This document shows, piece by piece, positions 1,304 to 13,776 of a stretch of DNA of 64,000 nt. This DNA comes from Burkholderia sp. HI2500 (GTDB lineage: Bacteria; Pseudomonadota; Gammaproteobacteria; Burkholderiales; Burkholderiaceae): assembly GCF_002223055.1 (NCBI RefSeq), contig NZ_NKFL01000006.1:2046001-2110000 (forward strand), in the 5' to 3' direction. Positions within the stretch are counted from its first letter, which is position 1, and each line of letters opens with the position of its first letter. The notes beneath the pieces are model-generated. The model did not search any database, was not told the origin of the DNA, and saw only the letters and a list, made by a program, of their open reading frames with translations. Both the position numbers and the translations under genes were made by a program.

Positions 1304-2068
1304 ATGACGTCTGCCGCCGCGCCCGCCGGCGAAGTCCTCTACACCGACTCGCGCCTCGTCGCGCTCTACGACCTGTTCAATGCGGGCGACCAGGACTTCG
1401 CGTTCTACACCTCCGTGATCGGTGCCGCGCGGCAACGCATCCTCGATCTCGGCTGCGGCACCGGCACGTTCGCGCGCCGGCTGGCGGCAGCCGGGCACGA
1501 CGTCGTCGCGATCGATCCCGCGCCGGCGATGATCGAATACGCGCGACGCCAGCCAGGCGCCGACACCGTCCACTGGCTCGCATGCGGGCTCGACAGCCTG
1601 CCGCCTGGCGCACCACCGTTCGATGCGGTCGTGATGACCGGGCATGCGTTCCAGTGCCTGCTGACCGACACCGAAATCGACGCGACGCTGCGCGGCGTGC
1701 GGCGCGTGCTCGCGGACGGCGGCCGCTTCCTGTTCGACACCCGCAATCCGCGCATCCAGCCGTGGCGTGCATGGACACCTGAGCATTCCGCACGCAGCGT
1801 CGAGTCCCGCGAAGCGGGCATCGTCGATCTTCATCATGCGGTGCGCTCGGTGGACGGTGTGATCGTGACGTTCGACACGCACTACCACTTCCGTCGTGAC
1901 GCTACGTTGCTGACGAACACGAGCCGGCTGCGTTTCATCGCGCAACCCGACCTGCAGGCACGCGTGATCGCAGCCGGATTCTCGTCGGCCGACTGGTACG
2001 GCGACTGGCAGCACGCGCCGTTCGATGATGCAACCAGCGCGGAGATCATCGCGATCTGCCGCGCCTGA
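1304..2068 (+). CDS. class I SAM-dependent methyltransferase
   Basis: A 254-residue protein with a Rossmann methyltransferase core. Motif I is ILDLGCGTGTFARRLAAAG (residues 46-64), followed by VVAIDPAPAMIEYAR as the acidic loop that binds the ribose of SAM, and FDAVVMTGHAFQCL as the motif IV region. It belongs to the Methyltransf_25/11 group; the substrate is unknown. The start lies 13 bases after the exporter stop and has no strong ribosome binding site, which suggests coupling to the upstream gene. It converges on the DUF2848 gene with only 20 bases between the stop codons. Confidence 0.82.
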   Translation: MTSAAAPAGEVLYTDSRLVALYDLFNAGDQDFAFYTSVIGAARQRILDLGCGTGTFARRLAAAGHDVVAIDPAPAMIEYARRQPGADTVHWLACGLDSLPPGAPPFDAVVMTGHAFQCLLTDTEIDATLRGVRRVLADGGRFLFDTRNPRIQPWRAWTPEHSARSVESREAGIVDLHHAVRSVDGVIVTFDTHYHFRRDATLLTNTSRLRFIAQPDLQARVIAAGFSSADWYGDWQHAPFDDATSAEIIAICRA

Positions 2069-2088
2069 GTGCGTGCGCTGCTACCGCG

Positions 2089-2778
2089 TCAACCCGCCAC
2101 GGGCAGCGTGTCCACCACATACACATGCCGCAATGTGCGCCCCAGCACCGGATCTTCCAGCTCGACCTCGAACCGCTCGGCCGGCCGGATGCCGCCGATC
2201 GCCGCAAGCGTGCCGCACAGCATCGCGGTGCCGTCGACGAAGCGGCCGTCGTGGCGTGCGAACTGCGCGAGCAGGTCGTCGGGCGCGCGCATCGCGGTCA
2301 CCTTGCCCTCCTGATACAGCACGCGCTCGCCGTCGATCGTCGCGTACGCGCGCAGCACGAGCTGATCCCAGTGCCCGGCCACGTCGTCGAACTTCCACAG
2401 CGTGTTCGCGCACGGCTTGCCGCACATCTGCTTCGACACCGTGATCCCGTAGGTCTCGACTTCACGGTCGGTATGGTCGGACGCGATGCCCACGAAGGTC
2501 TCGCCGCCGTCGCGCAGCAGCACGAATTCCGCTTCGCCGCTGCTCTGCCCGCCCGATACCTGGATCGCGGGCGACGGATCGAGGCGATCGGCCGCGACGC
2601 GGTAGAACACGGGCGTCGTCGCCGGGCGCTTGACGCCGAGTTCCTCCAGTTCGCGGATGTGCTGCTCCATGGCGACCGTGTCGCGGCCGGTCCAGCCCGC
2701 GATCACGAGCGTGTCGATCGCGATCGCGCGCTCGGTGCGGCCGTCGCGACCGTCGATCGCGAACGTGATGGTTTTCAT
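2089..2778 (-). CDS. DUF2848 family protein (fumarylacetoacetate-hydrolase-like fold)
   Basis: A 229-residue protein matching DUF2848: an N-terminal MKTITFAIDGRDG strand, a central REVETYGITVSKQMCGKP segment and a C-terminal RPAERFEVELEDPVLGRTL region resembling the FAH-like fold. The family is often found beside aromatic or amino-acid catabolic genes and has no settled reaction. Here it is the last gene of a four-gene minus-strand operon (flavin reductase, HpaB-like oxygenase, cupin, DUF2848) with short spacers. A hydrolytic step after ring oxidation is an inference from the FAH resemblance and the context only. Confidence 0.75.
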   Translation of the reverse strand: MKTITFAIDGRDGRTERAIAIDTLVIAGWTGRDTVAMEQHIRELEELGVKRPATTPVFYRVAADRLDPSPAIQVSGGQSSGEAEFVLLRDGGETFVGIASDHTDREVETYGITVSKQMCGKPCANTLWKFDDVAGHWDQLVLRAYATIDGERVLYQEGKVTAMRAPDDLLAQFARHDGRFVDGTAMLCGTLAAIGGIRPAERFEVELEDPVLGRTLRHVYVVDTLPVAG

Positions 2779-2850
2779 CGAATGCTCCTCGTGGCGGGCA
2801 GCGCACGCGCTGCGCGCTGCCGCCCGCCGTGTGTCGTGGATCGGCCGGGC

Positions 2851-3237
2851 TTACGCCGGGTCGTAGTAGTGGATCTCCAGCAGCACGCAGCCGCCGTTCG
2901 ACTTGAACGGGCCGTGCCATGCGCCGGGCGGACGCACCGCGTACGTGTAGCCCTTGAACGGCGTACCGCCGTTGCCGTGCTCGTCGTTGCCGACGGTCAG
3001 GTCGCCCTCGACGAGAAACACCTCTTCCCAGTAGTCGTGCACGAACGGCTTCTTCGTATGCAGCCCGGCCGGCAGGCGCAACAGGCGCGTGCGGCTGCCG
3101 CGCTTGCGCTCGGTGTCGAGCGCGCCGGACAGGATCAGCTCCTGCGCGCCGGACGCGGGGTCATAGCCTTCCGGCAGCCGCCAGTCGCGCTGCATGTCCA
3201 GCGTATGGAATTCGTCGTGAAGCTTGTTGATGGCCAT
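2851..3237 (-). CDS. small cupin-domain protein
   Basis: A 128-residue single-domain cupin. GDLTVGNDEHGNGGTPF and YAVRPPGAWHGPFKSNGGC correspond to the two cupin motifs, the second retaining the His of the metal-binding set. The start at 3237 is chosen because AGGAGAG lies just upstream; an upstream in-frame ATG at 3276 lacks such a site. It sits in the monooxygenase operon, 48 bases after the oxygenase and 72 bases before the DUF2848 gene. It could be a dioxygenase or isomerase in the same pathway or a non-catalytic accessory protein; the sequence does not decide. Confidence 0.75.
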   Translation of the reverse strand: MAINKLHDEFHTLDMQRDWRLPEGYDPASGAQELILSGALDTERKRGSRTRLLRLPAGLHTKKPFVHDYWEEVFLVEGDLTVGNDEHGNGGTPFKGYTYAVRPPGAWHGPFKSNGGCVLLEIHYYDPA

Positions 3238-3285
3238 CTGTCTCTCCTGTGGCGATAGCGGATGAATCGGATGCAAGGCGACGCG

Positions 3286-4764
3286 TCAGGCGGCGCGCGG
3301 CGTCGACAGTTCCTGGTTCAGCGAATAGCTGCCGAGCATCGAATCGACGAGATGCGACGCGCGCTGCCAGTCGTACGTGCGATACGCGTGCCCCTTCGTG
3401 ACGAACGACGCGCCCGCATAGAACAGCTCGTACTGGTTGTGGCGCGAGGCGAATTCGGAGCCGACCGCATCCCACGCGAGCTTGAAGAACTTCACGCGCT
3501 CCTCCGACGAACACACGGGCGATTTCTGTGTTTTCTCGATGATGCGCAGCAGGTCGGGATTCTCGAAATCGCGCACGCTGGACGGCAGCATGATCATTCC
3601 GCCGCCGGCGAGCTCGCGCAGCGTGTTGAGCACCTTCGAATAGAGCTGCTGCGTGACGACCTGCGAGCCGTACAGCATGTTGCGGTCGGGCACGTAGAAA
3701 CCGTTGACGACGTTGCCCTTCGCTTCCATCCCGTAGACCCACGCCTCGACCATCGACGCTTCGGCCGCGAGCTGGCCCAGCGTTTCGCGCACCTGCGGGA
3801 ACGTATTCGTGCCGTTGACCTCGGAAATCTTCAACCCGAGCCCGACGAGGAAGCGCAGCTTCGTCATCAGCCGCACCTGGCACTGGTAGTTCTGGTACAC
3901 GTGCGCGGGCGTCGCGTGGAACTGCTTCGCGCACATCGCCGTATTGCCGGCGACGAAGATCCGTTCCCACGGCACCTTCACGTCGTCGAAATACAGCACC
4001 GCGTCGTTCTCGTCGAAGCGGCTCGACAGCGGGTTGTCGAACACCGACGTCGCGTTCTCCTCGTACGACTTGCGCGACAGGATCTTCATGCCCTTCGCGT
4101 TCATCGGCACCGCGAACGACAGCGCGTACATCTCGTCGCCTTCGCGCAGCGGCTGGATGCAGCTGCAGAACACCTCGTTCGCCATGATCCCGCTCGTCGC
4201 GAGCATCTTCGCGCCGCGCACCGTGATGCCTTCGGCATCCTGATCGACGATGCCGACCGCGAGGTACTTGTCCTCCTGCTCGTGTGCGGACTTCGACTGG
4301 TTCGCCTGCGGATTCACGATCACGTAGGTCAGGAACAGGTCGTTGTCGCGCGCATGGCGGTAGTAGTCGCGCAGCGCGCCCGCTCGCGCCGGATCGTATT
4401 GCTCGAACACGTCGGCGCCCATGAACATGCCGGAAAGACAGGATGCGACGTGATCCGGCGAACGCCCCATGAAGCCATAGTGCAGCTCCGACCACGCTTC
4501 CAGCGCGGCACGGCGCTCGACGAGTTCGTCATAGGACGTCGGCAGTTGCCAGATCCGGCTGACGCGGTTGCCCGAGTCGGGCGAGACGAACGTCATCTTC
4601 TCGACGTTCTCGTCGCGCGCCTGGTAGTCGTACAGGCTCGCGTAGCTGCGGATCGAATTGCGGAATGCCGCGTGCGCGGTCACGTCGCCGACCGGCTGGC
4701 CGTTCAGGTAGACCTGCCGCCCGTCACGCAGCGACGCGATGTGCTGAGTCCCGTTCTTGATCAT
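3286..4764 (-). CDS. 4-hydroxyphenylacetate 3-monooxygenase-family oxygenase (HpaB-like)
   Basis: A 492-residue protein of the HpaB/HadA/TftD family of FADH2-dependent aromatic monooxygenases. Visible family segments are an N-terminal region around the DGRQVYLNGQPVGDVTAH strand, the central TVRGAKMLATSGIMANEVF, and DDVKVPWERIFVAGN followed by a helical C-terminal domain. The start at 4764 has GGAGG at the right distance; an upstream ATG at 4800 lacks one. It lies 36 bases after a flavin reductase gene, which would supply FADH2. The aromatic substrate is unknown; the gene symbol hpaB is withheld because several substrates are known in this family and no meta-cleavage genes are nearby. Confidence 0.85.
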   Translation of the reverse strand: MIKNGTQHIASLRDGRQVYLNGQPVGDVTAHAAFRNSIRSYASLYDYQARDENVEKMTFVSPDSGNRVSRIWQLPTSYDELVERRAALEAWSELHYGFMGRSPDHVASCLSGMFMGADVFEQYDPARAGALRDYYRHARDNDLFLTYVIVNPQANQSKSAHEQEDKYLAVGIVDQDAEGITVRGAKMLATSGIMANEVFCSCIQPLREGDEMYALSFAVPMNAKGMKILSRKSYEENATSVFDNPLSSRFDENDAVLYFDDVKVPWERIFVAGNTAMCAKQFHATPAHVYQNYQCQVRLMTKLRFLVGLGLKISEVNGTNTFPQVRETLGQLAAEASMVEAWVYGMEAKGNVVNGFYVPDRNMLYGSQVVTQQLYSKVLNTLRELAGGGMIMLPSSVRDFENPDLLRIIEKTQKSPVCSSEERVKFFKLAWDAVGSEFASRHNQYELFYAGASFVTKGHAYRTYDWQRASHLVDSMLGSYSLNQELSTPRAA

Positions 4765-4800
4765 GGTGTCCTCCAGGGTGGAATGAAACGTGGATTGCAT

Positions 4801-5328
4801 TCAGGCAGACGGCGCGTGCATGCCGTCGAGCGTGCGGTAGCGGCCGCCGAAGAAGATCAGCGGGCGCCCTTCCGAACGCGCGCAGTGCCGCGTCACGCGG
4901 CCGACGAAGATCACGTGATCGCCGCCGTCGTACTGCGCATAGGGTTCGCATTCGAATGTCGCGAGCGCGTCGGGCAGCAGCACCGCGCCATCGTCGTCGG
5001 CTGCGTCCGCACGCCAGCCCCACTTGTCGCCGTTCGCCTTCGCGAAGCAGTTCGACAGGTGCTGCTGCGTCTCGTCGAGCACGTTGACCGCATAGCCTTC
5101 CGCGCCGGCCAGGTCGCCGAGGCTCAGGCTGCGACGGTCGACCGAGAACAGGATCAGCGGCGGATCCAGCGACACCGAATTGAACGACGCGACCGTGATG
5201 CCGATCGGCATCCCCTCCTTGCGCGGTGCGGTAATCACCGCGACGCCCGTCGCGAACATCGACAGCGCCGTGCGAAAGCGCCGCTGCTCGTCGGCGCCCG
5301 CGCCGGTTCCGGCATGGTTCTCGCTCAT
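4801..5328 (-). CDS. flavin reductase (HpaC/DIM6-NTAB family)
   Basis: A 175-residue flavin reductase domain protein. FRTALSMFATGVAVITA, GITVASFNSVSLDPPLILFSVDRRS and the AVNVL/LSNCFA segments are standard for the family, which reduces FMN or FAD with NAD(P)H for a partner oxygenase. The start at 5328 follows AAGGAGG; an upstream ATG at 5382 is less likely. It is the first gene of the monooxygenase operon, and its upstream region (5391-5415) holds a direct repeat also found before the MarR gene at 7417. Confidence 0.85.
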   Translation of the reverse strand: MSENHAGTGAGADEQRRFRTALSMFATGVAVITAPRKEGMPIGITVASFNSVSLDPPLILFSVDRRSLSLGDLAGAEGYAVNVLDETQQHLSNCFAKANGDKWGWRADAADDDGAVLLPDALATFECEPYAQYDGGDHVIFVGRVTRHCARSEGRPLIFFGGRYRTLDGMHAPSA

Positions 5329-5390
5329 CTCGTCCTCCTTGGGTTGCATCGCCGGATTCCGCAGTGGAATCCGGCCCAACAAATCACCGT

Positions 5391-5428
5391 TATTTAGCTT
5401 TGTTATTTAGCTTTTATTAAATGTAAAC
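5391..5428 (-). promoter_or_regulatory. direct-repeat operator and promoter of the monooxygenase operon
   Basis: TATTTAGCTTT occurs twice, at 5391-5401 and 5404-5414, 13 bases apart. On the minus strand a TTTACA-like -35 element lies at 5423-5428, so the repeats would overlap the -10 region of a promoter reading into the flavin reductase gene. The core ATTTAGCTTTG recurs at 7446-7456 in the promoter of the MarR gene. Shared sites at two MarR-linked promoters indicate, by inference, a common operator. Confidence 0.5.
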
Positions 5429-5604
5429 ACAAAGGCGGGTTCAAGTTGTCGTAAACCCTGAACTTGAAAGCTTTGTTTGAAAGACAACCCTACTGGCGGG
5501 ATGGATGTTGCGCGACGTCCGGGAATGTCCACGTACACTGCGGCTACCCTGTTCCCCGGTGCTTTCGGGCACCGCGGGAGACACCGTCTTCCGGAGCCGC
5601 ATCG

Positions 5605-8200: not shown

Positions 8201-9817
8201 TCACGCTCCGTCAAGCGCCTGCCGCACCCCGTCCCAATCCAGCCCGAATCGCGCCAGATACTTGCGCAGCCGGTCCGCATCGTTCGGCTGCTTCTTGCTC
8301 TGCCGCGACACCGCGAACAGCGTGCGTCCCGCCTCCGACAAGCTTGCCGACATGCGGCACACGTCCAGCACGCGTTCGAGCTGCGCACGGTCGAACAGGT
8401 CGAGTTCTTCCGCACGCGCACCGAACACCGCATCGACGCATGCATCGGACGCACCCGCGCCGCCCGGCGACGACCACGTGCGCGTCAGCCGTTCGACTTC
8501 CTGCTCGGCGAGCGCTTCGGTAATCCGCCCCGCATCGGCCAGCGTCGCCATCCGCGTGACCGACGCGGACAGCTCACGGAAGTTGCCGGCCCACGCCGCG
8601 CGCGGCGACGCAGCGAACGCGAGATAACGCCGCTTCGCCTCGACGTTGAACCGCACCTGCTCGCCCTGCTCGCGGCCGAAACGGTCGAGTTCGAATTCGA
8701 GGTTCGGCTCGATGTCCTCGCGCCGCTCGGCCAGCCCCGGCAGTTCGTACGTCCACAGGTTGATCCGCGCGTAGAGATCCTCGCGGAACGTGCCGGCCGC
8801 CACCATCTGCCGCAGGTCGCGGTGCGTGCCCGCGATCAGCTCGAAATCGCTGGTCGCCTCGACGTCCGCGCCGACCGGCAGGAAGCGCTTCTCCTCGATC
8901 GCCTTCAGCAGCATCGCCTGTTCGTCGAGCCCGAGTTCGCCGATCTCGTCGAGAAACAGCAGCCCGCCGTCCGCCGCGCGCAGCAGCCCGGCCCGCGCCG
9001 ACTGCGCGCCCGTGAACGCGCCCTTCACGTGACCGAACAGCGTCGACATCGCCGCGTCGCCGCGCAGCGTCGCGCAGTTGATCTCGATGAACGGCCCCGC
9101 GAGCCGATGGCGGCCGCGCTTCAGCTCGTACACGCGCTTCGCGAGAAACGACTTGCCGGCGCCCGTCGGCCCGACCAGCAGCATCGGCGCGCGCGAACGC
9201 ACGGCCACGCGCTCCAGTTGCTCGATCAGCGCGTTGAAGCGCGCGTTGCGCGTCGCGATGCCGGCCTTCAGGAACGACACCGTTTCGTCGCGTTCGCGCG
9301 TGAAGCGCTGCGCGATGCGGTTGTAGCGCGACAGGTCGAGATCGATCACCGACATCGTGCCGGGCCCGCTCGGTCCTTCGTCGGTCTTCTGCGGCGGCGC
9401 CGTCTGCGCGAGACGCGCAGGCAGGTAGCGCGCCTCCGCCAGCAGGAACCAGCAGATCTGCGCGACGTGCGTGCCCGTCGTGATGTGGATCAGGTAGTCC
9501 TCGCGGTCGAGATCGAACGGGTACGCGCGCGCGAAATCGTGCAGCGTGGCGTAGACCTCCTCGAAATCCCACGGATCGCGAATCTCCATCGGGATCAGCC
9601 GCACGTCGGTGTGCGGCGACACACGCTCGAGATCCTGCTTCACGCGGTTCGCGAGCCGCGCGTAGTTTGGCGAGTGCAACAGTTCGAGCCGGTCGATCGG
9701 CGTGTCGCGCTGCTCGCACAGCGAAATCGTCGGCCGCCAGTTGCGCCAGCGGCGCTGCGAGCCGCCGCCCTGGTCGAGCACGGTACCGAGAAAACCGATC
9801 GCAACAGTCTTTCGCAT
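8201..9817 (-). CDS. rtcR: RtcR, sigma-54-dependent activator of the RNA repair operon
   Basis: A 538-residue activator. Residues 1-180 form the RtcR regulatory (CARF-type) domain: VAIGFLGTVLDQG at the start and LIHITTGTHVAQICWFLLAE near residue 110. The AAA+ domain follows with Walker A GPTGAGKS, the sigma-54 contact loop GAFTGA and Walker B LLFLDEIGEL; a C-terminal Fis-like helix set ends the protein. In Salmonella, RtcR is known to switch on rtcBA after binding RNA ends from damaged tRNA. The start at 9817 gives the conserved N-terminus. It is divergent from the sigma-54 promoter at 9967, which fits control of the tRNA-like RNAs, slipin, RtcB and nucleotidyltransferase. Confidence 0.95.
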   Translation of the reverse strand: MRKTVAIGFLGTVLDQGGGSQRRWRNWRPTISLCEQRDTPIDRLELLHSPNYARLANRVKQDLERVSPHTDVRLIPMEIRDPWDFEEVYATLHDFARAYPFDLDREDYLIHITTGTHVAQICWFLLAEARYLPARLAQTAPPQKTDEGPSGPGTMSVIDLDLSRYNRIAQRFTRERDETVSFLKAGIATRNARFNALIEQLERVAVRSRAPMLLVGPTGAGKSFLAKRVYELKRGRHRLAGPFIEINCATLRGDAAMSTLFGHVKGAFTGAQSARAGLLRAADGGLLFLDEIGELGLDEQAMLLKAIEEKRFLPVGADVEATSDFELIAGTHRDLRQMVAAGTFREDLYARINLWTYELPGLAERREDIEPNLEFELDRFGREQGEQVRFNVEAKRRYLAFAASPRAAWAGNFRELSASVTRMATLADAGRITEALAEQEVERLTRTWSSPGGAGASDACVDAVFGARAEELDLFDRAQLERVLDVCRMSASLSEAGRTLFAVSRQSKKQPNDADRLRKYLARFGLDWDGVRQALDGA

Positions 9818-9869: not shown

Positions 9870-9966
9870 AGCCACCATCGGAGATTCAAGCCTCACCTGC
9901 CGCTTGAAATAATTTTCCCTTTTACTTCAATGGCTTGAGATTTTTCTCGAGCATCGAGTCACCCGC

Positions 9967-9982
9967 TGGCACGCTCCTCGCT
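9967..9982 (+). promoter_or_regulatory. sigma-54 promoter of the RNA repair operon
   Basis: TGGCACG-N4-TCGCT matches the -24/-12 consensus (TGGCACG-N4-TTGCW) with one mismatch, and GG (9968-9969) and GC (9980-9981) are separated by exactly ten bases. The predicted start of transcription is about 9993, at the first base pair of the first tRNA-like element. The divergent rtcR gene encodes the matching activator. Confidence 0.85.
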
Positions 9983-9991
9983 AAATAGAAA

Positions 9992-10045
9992 GCGCCGGAT
10001 GTCCCGCTGGCCCACGAGTCAGGGTTCACAAAGCCCTGCTGGTGC
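9992..10045 (+). ncRNA. tRNA-like element 1 (acceptor stem plus T-arm-like hairpin)
   Basis: GCGCCGG at 9992-9998 pairs over seven positions (two G-U) with CTGGTGC at 10039-10045. Directly inside the 3' strand lies a T-arm-like hairpin, CAGGG (10020-10024) with CCCTG (10034-10038), whose loop begins TTCA. The arrangement copies the acceptor/T-arm half of a tRNA, without a clear D or anticodon arm. It begins at the predicted transcription start of the sigma-54 promoter. The bases after the stem are G-CCG, close to a discriminator-CCA end. Confidence 0.5.
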
Positions 10046-10106
10046 GCCGCCGCCGAACCTCGTTCGTCGCGGCAGCGCATGTCGCCATGGGCAGACGAAG
10101 GCAAAC

Positions 10107-10151
10107 GGGCGCGTACTGGAACTTCGCCCGGGTTCGAGTCCCAGGGCGCCC
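10107..10151 (+). ncRNA. tRNA-like element 2 (minihelix)
   Basis: GGGCGC at 10107-10112 pairs with GCGCCC at 10146-10151 as an acceptor-like stem. Next to it, GGG-TTCGAGT-CCC (10130-10142) is a T-arm with the standard seven-base TTCGANT loop; four of five T-stem pairs form. About 14 bases replace the rest of a tRNA. An alternative hairpin (GGGCG 10107-10111 with CGCCC 10125-10129) competes with the acceptor stem. The stem is followed by T-CCG. Confidence 0.5.
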
Positions 10152-10154
10152 TCC

Positions 10155-10223
10155 GTTCGGAAGCTCATAGGTAGAGCAGCCGGCGCAAGCCGGTGTGTAG
10201 CGGGTTCGAATCCCGCTCGAACA
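10155..10223 (+). ncRNA. tRNA-like element 3 with full cloverleaf but no anticodon
   Basis: GTTCGG (10155-10160) pairs with TCGAAC (10217-10222). The D-arm is GCTC (10163-10166), loop ATAGGTA, GAGC (10174-10177), keeping the GG of a D-loop. The T-arm is GCGGG-TTCGAAT-CCCGC (10200-10216), perfect. The anticodon arm is replaced by CCGGC-GCAA-GCCGG (10180-10193), a GNRA tetraloop, so it cannot decode. This is a tRNA mimic, comparable with the tRNA-like domain known in bacterial Y RNAs encoded beside rtcBA in Salmonella. Three bases separate it from element 2. It is not a decayed tRNA in the ordinary sense, because the stems are intact and the loop is replaced cleanly. Confidence 0.7.
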
Positions 10224-10285
10224 CTGTCCGCAAGGACAGTCTCTTGATAGAAGCAGTACCCGCCGGTGCGGGCCGCAAGGCCCGC
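10224..10285 (+). ncRNA. two GCAA-tetraloop hairpins downstream of the tRNA-like array
   Basis: CTGTCC-GCAA-GGACAG (10224-10239) is a six-pair hairpin that follows element 3 directly. GCGGGCC-GCAA-GGCCCGC (10268-10285) is a seven-pair hairpin with the same loop. With the anticodon-arm replacement in element 3 this makes three GCAA loops within about 100 bases. No T-run follows, so they do not look like intrinsic terminators. They may be processing or protein-binding sites in the leader before slipin. Confidence 0.55.
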
Positions 10286-10482
10286 CGCGCGTCGGACCGG
10301 TTGCGGATCCGCGCGATCGGCCGGACGGCCGCACGGCCCGCGCGAACGTGCACGACGACGCGATGCAGGATGCGTCGCCGTGCACGTCGACGCCGGGCCA
10401 GCGCGCCGCCCGCCCGGTTGCGTCGCCCCGCGATCCGCACGATGCGTGTCACCCGGCGGTCATTGAAGAAAAGGACAAGAAT

Positions 10483-11622
10483 ATGTGGATGCGACATGTT
10501 GTGAAAAAGAACGAACGCGCGCTGCTGATGAACGAGGGCGATTTCGTGAAGGTGCTGGAACCGGGCGTGTTCAAGGCCTTCGATCCGTTCAAGCGCCTGT
10601 CGGTGCAGACCGCGCGCCTCGACGCGCCGCTCGCCGATGCGGCACTGGCCGATTACCTGCGTCACGACGCGCCGGACGTGCTCGCGCAGCACTTCGTCGC
10701 GATGGACCTCGCCGACGATGAAGCGGGCCTGCGCTACGAAGACGACGTGCTCGTCGAGATCCTGGCGCCGGGCACGCGCCGGCTGTACTGGCGCGGCCTG
10801 ACCGCGCACCGCCTCGAACGCGTCGATCTCGCGCAGGACAGCCTGCTGCCGGCCGCGCTCGTGAAGCGCATCGCGCAACCGGCGCTGCGTGCACGCGGCG
10901 TGGCGGGCCTGACGGGCGTGCTGCTGGCGCAGGTGCCGGCGTACCACGTCGGCGTGCTGAAGATCGACGGCAAGATCGAGCGGTTGCTGGACGCGGGCGT
11001 AGCGGCGTTCTGGCGCTTCAACCGCGACGTCGCGGTCGAGCTCGTCGACCTGCGTTTGCAGGCGATCGAAGTCGGCGGACAGGAAATCCTGACGCGCGAC
11101 AAGGTCGCGCTGCGGCTGAACCTGTCGGCGACGTGGTGCTATGCGGACGTGCTGCACGCGTTCGGCCAGCTGCAGAAGCCGGTCGAGCACCTGTATCGCG
11201 AGCTGCAGTTCGCACTGCGATCGGCCGTCGGCACGCGCTCGCTCGACGAACTGCTGGAAGACAAGCAGTCGATCGACGACGTCGTGATCACGCAGGTGCG
11301 TGCCCGTCTCGAGCATTCCGGCGTGGACGTGCGCAGCGTCGGCGTGAAGGATATCGTGCTGCCGGGCGACATGAAGACGATCCTCGCGCAGGTGGTCGAA
11401 GCGGAGAAATCCGCGCAGGCGAACGTGATTCGCCGCCGCGAGGAAACGGCGGCCACGCGTTCGCTGTTGAACACCGCGAAGGTGATGGAAGAAAACCCGA
11501 CCGCGCTGCGGCTCAAGGAGCTGGAAACGCTCGAGCGCGTCGCGGAACGGATCGACCGCATCTCGGTGTTCGGCGGTCTCGACCAGGTGCTGAACGGACT
11601 CGTCAGCATCAAGGGCGCGTAA
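10483..11622 (+). CDS. slipin/SPFH (Band 7) family protein of the RNA repair operon
   Basis: A 379-residue SPFH-domain protein. It opens MWMRHVVKKNERALLMNEGDF, has the Band-7 core EILTRDKVALRLNLSATWCYADV near residue 205, a helical RELQFALRSAVGTRSLDELLED, GVKDIVLPGDMKTILAQVVEAE, and a coiled-coil tail from about residue 310. There is no hydrophobic N-terminal anchor, unlike classic slipins. The ATG at 10483 follows AAGGA. Slipin-type genes beside rtcB are known from comparative genomics of RNA repair loci; their role is not settled and could be scaffolding or membrane association. It is the first protein gene on the sigma-54 transcript. Confidence 0.85.
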   Translation: MWMRHVVKKNERALLMNEGDFVKVLEPGVFKAFDPFKRLSVQTARLDAPLADAALADYLRHDAPDVLAQHFVAMDLADDEAGLRYEDDVLVEILAPGTRRLYWRGLTAHRLERVDLAQDSLLPAALVKRIAQPALRARGVAGLTGVLLAQVPAYHVGVLKIDGKIERLLDAGVAAFWRFNRDVAVELVDLRLQAIEVGGQEILTRDKVALRLNLSATWCYADVLHAFGQLQKPVEHLYRELQFALRSAVGTRSLDELLEDKQSIDDVVITQVRARLEHSGVDVRSVGVKDIVLPGDMKTILAQVVEAEKSAQANVIRRREETAATRSLLNTAKVMEENPTALRLKELETLERVAERIDRISVFGGLDQVLNGLVSIKGA

Positions 11623-11684: not shown

Positions 11685-12908
11685 ATGAGTGAAATGGATT
11701 ATCAGGTCATGGAACTGGCGAACGGCAAGCCGGTGAAGATGTGGACGCAAGGCGTGGCCGTTGAAGACGAGGCGCGCGCCCAACTGCGCAACACCGCGCA
11801 GATGCCGTTCATCTTCAGCCACGTCGCGGTGATGCCCGACGTCCACCTCGGCAAGGGCTCGACGATCGGCAGCGTGATCCCGACGAAGGGCGCGATCATT
11901 CCGGCCGCGGTCGGCGTCGACATCGGCTGCGGGATGATGGCCGCGCGCACGACGCTGACGGCGTCCGACCTGCCGGATTCGCTGGCGGGGCTGCGCAGCG
12001 CGATCGAACGCGCGGTGCCGCACGGCCGCGCGCCGGGCCGCCGCGATCCGGGCGCGTGGGGCGACCGCACGCCGGCCGCCGTGACCGAATCGTGGAAGGC
12101 GCTGCAACCGGGCTTCCAGCGGATCGTCGACAAGTATCCGAAGCTGGAAAAGACGAACCACTACGCGCATCTCGGCACGCTCGGCACCGGCAACCACTTC
12201 ATCGAAGTGTGCGTCGACGAAGCGGACCACGTGTGGTTCATGCTGCACAGCGGCTCGCGCGGCGTCGGCAATGCGATCGGCAGCCTGTTCATCGAACTCG
12301 CACAGGCCGACATGCGGCAGCACATCGCGAACCTGCCGGATCGCAACCTCGCGTATTTCACCGAGGGCAGCCGGCACTTCGACGACTACGTCGAAGCGGT
12401 CGGCTGGGCGCAGGACTACGCGCGCCGCAACCGGCAGGCGATGATGGACGCAGTAATCGGTGCAGCACGCGGCGTGATCGCCAAGCCGTTCGCGGTCGAC
12501 GAACACGCGGTGAACTGCCACCACAACTACGTGCAGCGCGAACGCCACTTCGGCGAAGACGTGCTCGTGACGCGCAAGGGTGCGGTGTCGGCGCAGAAGG
12601 GGCAGCTCGGGATCATTCCGGGCTCGATGGGGGCGAAGAGCTTCATCGTGCGCGGGCTCGGCAACCCGGACAGCTTCTGTTCGTGCAGCCACGGCGCGGG
12701 CCGGACGATGAGCCGCACCGAAGCGAAGCGCCGCTTCACCGTCGACGACCAGGTGAAGGCAACCCAGGGCGTCGAATGCCGGAAGGACTCGGGCGTCGTC
12801 GACGAAATCCCGATGGCCTACAAGGACATCGACGCGGTGATGGCGGCCCAGCGCAGCCTCGTCGAAGTGGTGCATACGCTGCGCCAGGTGGTGTGCGTGA
12901 AAGGATAG
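11685..12908 (+). CDS. rtcB: RtcB, GTP/Mn-dependent RNA 3'-phosphate (2',3'-cyclic phosphate)-5'-OH ligase
   Basis: A 407-residue RtcB of the usual length. Seen in order: MPDVHLGKGSTIGSVIPT, the metal-binding GVDIGCGMMA with its cysteine, GTGNHFIEV, FMLHSGSRGVGN, HNYVQRERHFG, GSMGAKSFIVRGLG and SHGAGRTMSR, which contains the guanylylated histidine. The enzyme joins RNA halves with 2',3'-cyclic phosphate and 5'-OH ends, such as cleaved tRNAs. The start at 11685 has AAGG at suitable spacing; 11679 is an in-frame alternative. It lies about 60 bases after slipin. No rtcA cyclase is in the operon; the next gene is a nucleotidyltransferase. Confidence 0.97.
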   Translation: MSEMDYQVMELANGKPVKMWTQGVAVEDEARAQLRNTAQMPFIFSHVAVMPDVHLGKGSTIGSVIPTKGAIIPAAVGVDIGCGMMAARTTLTASDLPDSLAGLRSAIERAVPHGRAPGRRDPGAWGDRTPAAVTESWKALQPGFQRIVDKYPKLEKTNHYAHLGTLGTGNHFIEVCVDEADHVWFMLHSGSRGVGNAIGSLFIELAQADMRQHIANLPDRNLAYFTEGSRHFDDYVEAVGWAQDYARRNRQAMMDAVIGAARGVIAKPFAVDEHAVNCHHNYVQRERHFGEDVLVTRKGAVSAQKGQLGIIPGSMGAKSFIVRGLGNPDSFCSCSHGAGRTMSRTEAKRRFTVDDQVKATQGVECRKDSGVVDEIPMAYKDIDAVMAAQRSLVEVVHTLRQVVCVKG

Positions 12909-12963: not shown

Positions 12964-13776
12964 ATGAAAACGGAAAAAATGACGACCGTGCGCAGCGCGC
13001 ATCCGGTCGATCCGACCGTGCGGGCGCGTGTGATGGCGGAGCTCGCGGAAGTCGAGCGCCGCCACGACGTGAGCGTGCTGTTCGCGTGCGAATCGGGCAG
13101 CCGCGGCTGGGGGTTCGCATCGCCGGACAGCGACTACGACGTGCGCTTCGTGTACGCGCACCGGCGCGACTGGTACCTGAGCGTCGAGCCGCAACGCGAC
13201 GTGATCGAACGGCCGCTCGACGACGAGCTCGACGTCAGCGGCTGGGAGTTGCGCAAGGCACTGCAACTGCTGCGCCGCTCGAACCCGACGCTGCTCGAAT
13301 GGCTCGACTCGCCCGTCGTGTATCGCGAAGACGCGCGCTGGGCGCCGCGGCTCAGGTCGCTCGCGTCGGCGTTCTTCTCGCCGGTGCGCGGGCGTCACCA
13401 CTACCTCGCGATGGCGAAGAAGAACTTTCGCGGCTATCTGCAAGGCGACACGGTGCGTTACAAGAAGTACCTGTACGTGCTGCGGCCGCTGCTCGCGGTG
13501 CGCTGGATCGACATGGGGCTCGGGATGCCGCCGATGCGCTTCGTGGATCTCGTCGACGGCACCGTGCACGAGCCGGCGGTGCGCGCGGAACTCGACGCCT
13601 TGCTCGCGCTGAAGATGAGCGCGAACGAAAGCGAGTACGGGCCGCGCCGGCCGGCGATCCACGCGCTCGTCGAGACGATGCTCGCCGATGCCGAACACGA
13701 TCGCGAATACAAGCGGCCGTGGGGCGACGTGGCGATGCTCGATGCGTTCCTGCGCGACGTGGTCGACGGTCGATGA
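12964..13776 (+). CDS. polymerase-beta-fold nucleotidyltransferase (COG3541/YcgL-like) of the RNA repair operon
   Basis: A 270-residue protein with the minimal nucleotidyltransferase signature: ACESGSRGWGFASPDSDYDV (from about residue 38) contains the GS motif and the metal-binding DxD. The region after it (LRKALQLLRRSNPTLLEWL, LAMAKKNFRGYLQGD, YKKYLYVLRPLLAVRWI) is the helical part typical of COG3541. Homologues are known next to rtcB in predicted RNA repair operons and may add nucleotides to RNA ends. The start at 12964 follows a purine-rich GGGAAA site. It is the last gene before the terminator at 13783. A tRNA-end or tRNA-mimic substrate is inference. Confidence 0.85.
   Translation: MKTEKMTTVRSAHPVDPTVRARVMAELAEVERRHDVSVLFACESGSRGWGFASPDSDYDVRFVYAHRRDWYLSVEPQRDVIERPLDDELDVSGWELRKALQLLRRSNPTLLEWLDSPVVYREDARWAPRLRSLASAFFSPVRGRHHYLAMAKKNFRGYLQGDTVRYKKYLYVLRPLLAVRWIDMGLGMPPMRFVDLVDGTVHEPAVRAELDALLALKMSANESEYGPRRPAIHALVETMLADAEHDREYKRPWGDVAMLDAFLRDVVDGR

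Follow-up and report, generated by a model that had tools for sequence, protein, structure and literature searches.

What is the conserved stretch that lies between a sigma-54 promoter and a slipin gene in an RNA repair operon of Burkholderia, and to which of its neighbours does it belong? The locus was studied in a window of 64,000 nucleotides (the whole stretch of DNA that was analysed), in which rtcR on the minus strand is followed by an intergenic region and then by slipin, rtcB and rlaP on the plus strand. An earlier note, made from the sequence without database searches, had read the intergenic region as three tRNA-like units. The features as now understood are listed below in the order of the DNA, with what each is based on.

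8201–9817, minus strand: rtcR, sigma-54 activator with RtcR (CARF-type) domain (PF06956, 276 bits; PF00158, 170 bits)
9967–9982, plus strand: sigma-54 (−24/−12) promoter-like site TGGCACGCTCCTCGCT (sequence; mostly kept in the genus alignment)
9993–10013, plus strand: 5' segment of the RNA with a possible short hairpin GCCGG/CTGGC (hairpin by eye)
10014–10043, plus strand: leader arm P1, 10014–10018 and 10020–10024 paired with 10034–10043, loop 10025–10033 (covariation)
10044–10085, plus strand: leader arm P2, from 10044 and closing at 10078, and the conserved ATGYCGC at 10079–10085 (covariation, motif columns)
10107–10151, plus strand: element 2, minihelix with acceptor 10107–10112/10146–10151 and T-arm 10128–10144, then T-CCG (sequence)
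10155–10222, plus strand: element 3, acceptor 10155–10160/10217–10222, D-arm 10163–10177, anticodon-like arm 10179–10194 with GCAA loop, T-arm 10200–10216 (Rfam, pair counts)
10223–10240, plus strand: 3' hairpin ACTGTCC-GCAA-GGACAGT (sequence; shuffle control in relatives)
10483–11622, plus strand: slipin (SPFH/Band 7; PF01145, 94 bits)
11685–12908, plus strand: rtcB, RNA ligase (PF01139, 437 bits)
12964–13776, plus strand: rlaP, RNA-repair nucleotidyltransferase of the pol-beta family (PF10127, 321 bits)

An RtcR/sigma-54-controlled RNA repair operon is recognised by an RtcR activator, a divergent sigma-54-like promoter and rtcB, and all three are present (the rtcR product scores 846 bits with NCBIfam NF038308, cut-off 650). 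The promoter-like site reads TGGCACG-N4-TCGCT, with one mismatch to the consensus, and predicts a start at about 9993, one base before a run of 20 bases (9994–10013) that is invariant in 39 aligned sequences of the genus. Site and start had been proposed in the earlier note and are upheld by the sequence and by a spacing kept in relatives: a loose pattern finds a sigma-54 site 90–140 nt before the ATGYCGC motif in 50 of 61 RtcR-bearing named slipin loci (40 of the 50 at 105–116 nt, 7 at 127 nt) and none by this rule in the other 11. Profile matches and sequence also bear out the note in that an RtcR/sigma-54 operon encoding RtcB and the nucleotidyltransferase RlaP begins with a structured RNA that has tRNA-like parts. 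This RNA, which is conserved and about 250 nt long, lies downstream of the sigma-54 site, between rtcR and slipin. The count of three tRNA-like units, however, holds in part only: element 3 is clear, element 2 is minimal and element 1 is of another kind.

Our main reading, to which we assign a probability of about 0.5, is that a non-coding RNA of some 250 nt is made from the RtcR/sigma-54 promoter and is the partner of the slipin in slipin/RtcB tRNA repair. The reasons for this are the covariation of the stems, the linkage to slipin and RtcB, a link to tRNA genes, the distribution of TROVE proteins, the inconsistent isotypes and an unconserved reading frame. A coding region was considered and rejected: the ATG-led frame 9999–10247 stops after 26 to 169 codons in 39 homologues (5 without a stop in the stretch), and only 14 of the 39 fall in the same length class. 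The minimum-energy fold of the single sequence has a z of −2.9 and is equalled in 2 of 200 shuffles; the cloverleaf of element 3 is absent from it, and the case for structure therefore rests on comparative evidence.

Element 1 turned out to be no tRNA mimic but a two-arm domain of another kind (P1 and P2, together the leader), which has no Rfam tRNA match; P1, formerly taken for its T-arm, is T-arm-shaped but shows no T-loop by eye. Among 55 aligned sequences, 90.4% of the cells of the 21 leader pairs are paired, against 72.1% when shuffled and at most 43.3% when slid, and 18 of the 21 pairs have changes on both sides. The P1 helix contributes 6 of 9 such pairs, with 92.6% of its cells paired, and helices 2 and 3 (the P2 part) contribute 12 of 12. 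It should be noted that the rows (91 loci, 85 distinct, 55 aligned) were selected for the motifs CYGGTG and ATGYCGC, whose conservation is therefore built in. The consensus, GCTCACAGG-Y-CRGGGTT..CCCYG-CYGGTGCRC-[arm]-GYGCATGCCGC, precedes the tRNA-like parts in 91 of 119 slipin loci by simple pattern. The covariance model built on the leader (R1) matches 9990–10091 with 74.6 bits, the window being one of its training rows. Rfam gave no match at gathering over the leader in the window and none over the leader in four other loci; the only one over it in the window, to the ybhL leader (15.8 bits, gathering 50), is at chance level. RNAalifold proposed a pairing of YGGT with GCCG as a rival to the extension of P1; it was set aside and the extension kept because the column 32/76 pair changes from G-C to A-U in 7 rows, and the two pairings may form a switch. 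Pairing of the leader with a ACCCGCCGG motif downstream of the 3' hairpin, considered by eye, was dropped, as the Burkholderia sequences do not support it. Between the 3' hairpin and slipin there is also a conserved stretch at 10254–10270, GCAGTACCCGCCGGTG (at similar places in relatives, GGTCGAAAGACCACCCGCCG), which resembles the 3' strand of P1.

Element 2 is tRNA-like in its acceptor stem (6 bp) and its T-arm (one C.A mismatch in this strain), but it has a link of 15 nt instead of D-arm and anticodon arm, and its best Rfam match is mascRNA-menRNA with 19.0 bits (gathering 42.5). A second T-arm is found 58–90 nt upstream in 94 of the 114 slipin loci that have a T-arm. By rule, an acceptor of 6–7 bp was found in 51 of 89 distinct loci, followed by NCC in 32 and by NCCA in 19; the window's own element 2 fails this rule, as its acceptor and T-arm have a single unpaired base between them. 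The earlier note had seen CCG or CTG one base after each stem; T-CCG does follow element 2, but after element 3 the CTG belongs to the 5' strand of the 3' hairpin. Minimal RNase P substrates resemble a minihelix with an NCCA end. This resemblance favours, as an alternative, that the whole RNA acts in cis as a 5' untranslated regulator of slipin, with RNase P processing at the tRNA-like parts and control of stability or translation, and has no function in trans; we return to it with the linkage data.

Element 3 passes the Rfam tRNA model RF00005 in a sensitive scan (37.8 bits, gathering 29); it was missed by the fast scan of the whole window, and ARAGORN finds no tRNA there. Its tRNA-like build, as first described, is confirmed by RF00005 and by covariation, and the GCAA tetraloop in place of an anticodon loop is real. 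Across 83 sequences, 92.7% of the cloverleaf cells are paired against 74.7% when shuffled, and the anticodon stem is 97% paired with compensatory changes at all 5 pairs. Compensatory stem changes in related loci, which the earlier note had named as a check, are found in the leader and in element 3. Because the rows had been selected for their D-arm and T-arm motifs (87 distinct; 83 were aligned, without L137 and three near-duplicates), the D and T stems cannot count as independent evidence, as the acceptor stem, the anticodon stem and the 3' hairpin can.

Is element 3, then, an ordinary working tRNA gene, or a decaying tRNA pseudogene? Matches to RF00005 and ARAGORN calls in many loci would fit this, as would canonical 5+7 anticodon arms in 32 of 85 relatives, 22 of them with T33. 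However, a seven-base loop with a consistent anticodon is not found: the loop is GCAA here, and its length in 85 loci ranges from 3 to 17, being 7 (35 loci), 4 (20), 5 (14), 3 (8), 9 (4), 6 (3) and 17 (1), so that the anticodon varies freely or is lost. Nor is there an acceptor of 7 bp with an encoded CCA end; 6 bp are followed by A-CTG, and the two outer pairs of the stem are present in no more than 36 and 44 of the 83 aligned sequences. ARAGORN calls a tRNA in 74 of 119 regions upstream of slipin, with many isotypes or '???'. Judged from sequence, this pattern of loops and isotypes is unlike that of one decoding tRNA, and the compensatory changes argue against decay. A working tRNA or a pseudogene is thus very improbable, and the evidence suggests instead that the RNA is a partner of a tRNA-repair system.

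Directly after element 3 stands the 3' hairpin, which the first reading had overlooked. Its loop has seven bases in 39 of 87 loci, four in 18 (including Burkholderia) and another length in 18; no equivalent hairpin was found in 12. The seven-base loops begin with CT in 34 cases and have T at position 33 in 36 and a purine at position 37 in 36, and their triplets vary (GAT 6, GTA 5, GTC 5, CAC 3, GTT 3, and others). Seven-base loops that combine T33 with a purine at 37 number 33 among 84 distinct loci, whereas 20 rounds of shuffling gave 0.4 on average and never more than 2; the loops with T33 sit on 20 different stems. For many relatives, the 3' hairpin therefore looks like a detached mimic of an anticodon stem-loop. 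For Burkholderia it should be noted that both loops, that of element 3 and that of the 3' hairpin, are tetraloops, mostly GNRA.

These loops bear on another explanation, namely that the RNA is a bait or sensor: anticodon nucleases would cut the exposed anticodon-like arms and spare the tRNAs, and the resulting 2',3'-cyclic-phosphate ends would be resealed by RtcB and would keep RtcR active. The frequency of T33/purine-37 loops, far above that in shuffled sequences, and their many stems are in line with it. So are the GUN triplets in 14 of the 39 seven-base loops (GTA 5, GTC 5, GTT 3, GTG 1), GUN being the set cut by colicin E5. If the anticodon-type hairpins were nuclease targets, a link between tRNA-cutting toxins and RtcR induction would be directly testable. 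On the other side stand the two tetraloops of Burkholderia, the 51 of 84 distinct loci without a seven-base T33/purine-37 loop and the presence of the RNA where RtcR is not nearby. Fragments of YrlA, moreover, went undetected in Salmonella (PMC7790460), which also counts against it. On balance we consider a bait or sensor improbable.

A primary coupling of the RNA to RtcR was not supported: the RNA follows the slipin gene. Within the genus, RtcR, slipin and RNA are all in the same 40 of 65 genomes (full-length homologues of 9960–10480 in 39, own genome included, and a more diverged one in G044, locus L041). Outside the genus, 14 of 39 RtcR loci have a slipin gene, all 14 with T-arm hairpins upstream of it and 12 with the leader (8 of them training rows of R1), whereas the leader was found in none of the 25 RtcR loci without slipin. 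In two loci (L112 and L113) rtcB comes first, and the tRNA-like parts stand not at the RtcR promoter but after rtcB and before slipin. Furthermore, the leader model gave 21 matches in 20 of 300 genomes of the order; all 14 with E ≤ 6.2e-8 adjoin slipin (7 training rows, 7 new), against none of the 7 weaker ones, and 6 of the 7 new strong matches have slipin but no RtcR within about 1.5 kb on either side. It is the L112/L113 layout, these six matches and the 25 slipin-less RtcR loci that assign the RNA to slipin and not to RtcR.

The linkage also holds more widely. Of 80 named slipin loci, all but L196 (79) have an R1 match upstream of the gene; 46 of the 80 are training rows, and of the other 34, 33 match. 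A T-arm lies at most 700 nt upstream of slipin in 113 of 117 loci that have enough sequence on that side (114 after correction of the slipin start in L126), against a background of 71 matches in 856,629 bases, or 0.058 per 700 nt. Sixty-one named slipin loci had flanks long enough to search: 59 have RtcB downstream, 54 have RtcR, and RlaP was found in 28. The window itself likewise combines a tRNA-like RNA with an SPFH gene and rtcB. Further carriers of the locus include Pseudomonas nitroreducens TX1 (L139) and Variovorax beijingensis (L193). Neither leader nor tRNA-like parts are indispensable, because three Pseudomonas slipin loci (L130, L136 and L151) keep the leader without a recognisable T-arm, and L112 and L113 have the tRNA-like parts without a leader match. 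The three Pseudomonas loci have lost the tRNA-like T-loop and, by eye, keep a 3' hairpin. These counts are to be read with the make-up of the sample in mind: Burkholderia and Pseudomonas are over-represented, several genomes are represented by two entries (e.g., window/L198, L101/L197, L078/L157, L096/L158, L112/L204), and the second RtcR locus of G357 (L095), with only 1.1 kb, is too short to place slipin. T-arm motifs are also seen in RtcR loci without slipin, for example in L082, L092, L098, L107, L108 and L114; in L108 YrlA explains at least one of them, and in L098 a lone T-arm near position 936 is followed by an ACCA end and is perhaps a tRNA remnant.

As the RNA stands directly before slipin, the linkage would look no different if it acted in cis within the slipin mRNA, and the RNA is found just upstream of slipin even where the gene order differs. 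Against cis regulation speak the roughly 240 nt that separate the 3' hairpin from the start of slipin in the window, and tRNA mimicry and anticodon-type loops that exceed the needs of processing. We regard it as rather improbable and prefer a partner of slipin that works in trans.

The comparison with the Y RNAs of Salmonella, drawn in the earlier note, is good as an analogy. YrlA with Rsr/Ro60 (RYPER) is described as lying, in some bacteria, within RtcR-RtcB operons (PMC7790460, PMC8394870, in the parts on these operons). Both systems, as far as those parts go, have a tRNA-mimic RNA, a ring protein and the setting of an RtcR-RtcB operon, but the partner is a TROVE protein there and an SPFH protein here, and the layout of the RNA differs. 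Is the RNA nevertheless a member of the YrlA family, with a Ro60 that escaped recognition? Weak matches to YrlA (RF02553) in the window (25.7 bits) and in L079 (31.7 bits) could be so interpreted; they are far under the gathering score of 69, and no TROVE/Ro60 match (PF05731) was found in the own genome or in any of 15 slipin genomes. With this score and without TROVE, the identification as a bacterial Y RNA was discarded as hardly credible. By contrast, 8 of 24 other RtcR genomes have TROVE, 5 of the 8 above cut-off (of 44 RtcR genomes, 5 were left out of the comparison, one belonging to the genus of the window and four whose matches were weak). Similarly, YrlA is above gathering in 5 of 24 scanned RtcR loci without slipin (L083, L086, L088, L089, L108) and in none of 14 with slipin, nor in the window. 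Y RNA with Rsr/Ro60 thus looks, from the TROVE counts, like an alternative module; in other RtcR operons Ro60 and Y RNA seem to replace slipin and its RNA. An unusual array is seen in L083 (genome G121), where nine YrlA-like matches of 31.6 to 77.7 bits, one above gathering, stand in a row between rtcR and rtcB at 1905–3677 on the minus strand; G121 has no TROVE match.

Where RtcR is missing, tRNA genes are often found upstream. Of 10 named loci that lack RtcR and extend far enough upstream, 8 have tRNA genes there on the same strand, one to six of them at 0.6–5.5 kb, against 1 of 61 RtcR-bearing loci. For example, the order in L159 is tRNA Asp, Phe, Arg, Pro, His, Glu, an HNH-type frame (by eye), leader and tRNA-like parts, slipin and rtcB. 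The tRNA genes and the HNH-type frame of L159 are at 3829–5480, and tRNA clusters are also seen in L160, L164, L174, L187 and L188. Anabaena has a stress-induced trn operon of tRNAs, the repressor of which, TrcR, also controls rtcB and a slipin gene, as stated in the part of the report on this regulon (PMC10272220). The TrcR regulon and RtcR-less loci such as L159 are alike in joining tRNA genes, slipin and rtcB, in L159 together with the RNA; they differ in that the Anabaena genes are apart by their locus numbers, and that part of the report identifies no RtcR (PMC10272220).

How might an RNA of this kind serve slipin? The slipin protein has N-terminal beta domains, an SPFH domain and a long helix (AF2 model, pLDDT 82, pTM 0.60), and no transmembrane helix is evident by eye. 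Foldseek aligned 421–438 columns of the model to chains of the major vault protein (MVP; best E 4e-12), the aligned parts being beta domains, SPFH domain and helix; the vault, with its vault RNA, is a ribonucleoprotein. A model of the N-terminal part found no Foldseek match at E ≤ 0.001, which excludes no fold. No slipin match was found in phage records, and the named near relatives of the window's slipin are from Burkholderia. We infer that transcription would start at the RtcR/sigma-54 promoter and run on through slipin, rtcB and rlaP, and that the RNA would be the 5' part of this transcript and be processed from it. Its four modules would be the two-arm leader, the minihelix of acceptor and T-arm, the tRNA-like body, which offers no usable anticodon, and the 3' hairpin, which is modelled on an anticodon arm. 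Slipin, by comparison with other SPFH proteins, may assemble as a ring or cage on which the leader domain, the tRNA-like parts or both would dock, and the tRNA-like surfaces could recruit enzymes that handle tRNA (RtcB and, in loci that have it, RlaP) to broken tRNAs.

A bolder version, which we hold only tentatively and think rather less than likely, is that of a dismantled tRNA, with minihelix, elbow-bearing body and anticodon arm as separate modules. The leader, a new domain, would load the RNA into a vault-like slipin cage, where as template or bait it would gather cut tRNAs and RtcB, making a machine like that of Ro60 and Y RNA from other parts, with reserve tRNA genes in some lineages.

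Burroughs and Aravind, in Nucleic Acids Res in 2016, reportedly described a 'novel tRNA-like molecule' as the cognate RNA of SPFH/Band-7 scaffolds, beside TROVE proteins with Y RNAs, and are also said to have named a new nucleotidyltransferase. Theirs would be the same association of SPFH protein and tRNA-like RNA as here, and the association is thus probably already known. Among the papers listed by a literature search that did not cover the 2016 paper, no description of this RNA came up, nor of its leader, its tetraloop form, its separate hairpin of the anticodon type or its link with tRNA genes. With this RNA, a little-studied gene neighbourhood becomes a testable ribonucleoprotein of a four-module RNA, a soluble-looking slipin and the RtcB ligase. 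If slipin and RNA are indeed partners, they would be a second, unrelated solution to the role that Ro60 and Y RNA may have beside RtcB, would help to explain why RtcB stands beside slipin in many bacteria and would account for the predicted 'tRNA genes' with inconsistent anticodons at slipin loci.

Finally, relics of the locus are seen in four loci of the genus (L040, L042, L043 and L046), in genomes without RtcR and without a slipin of the operon type. L043 retains the promoter and part of element 1, and L040 only the stretch after the array; rtcB sequence, by eye, still follows the relics in L042, L043 and L046.
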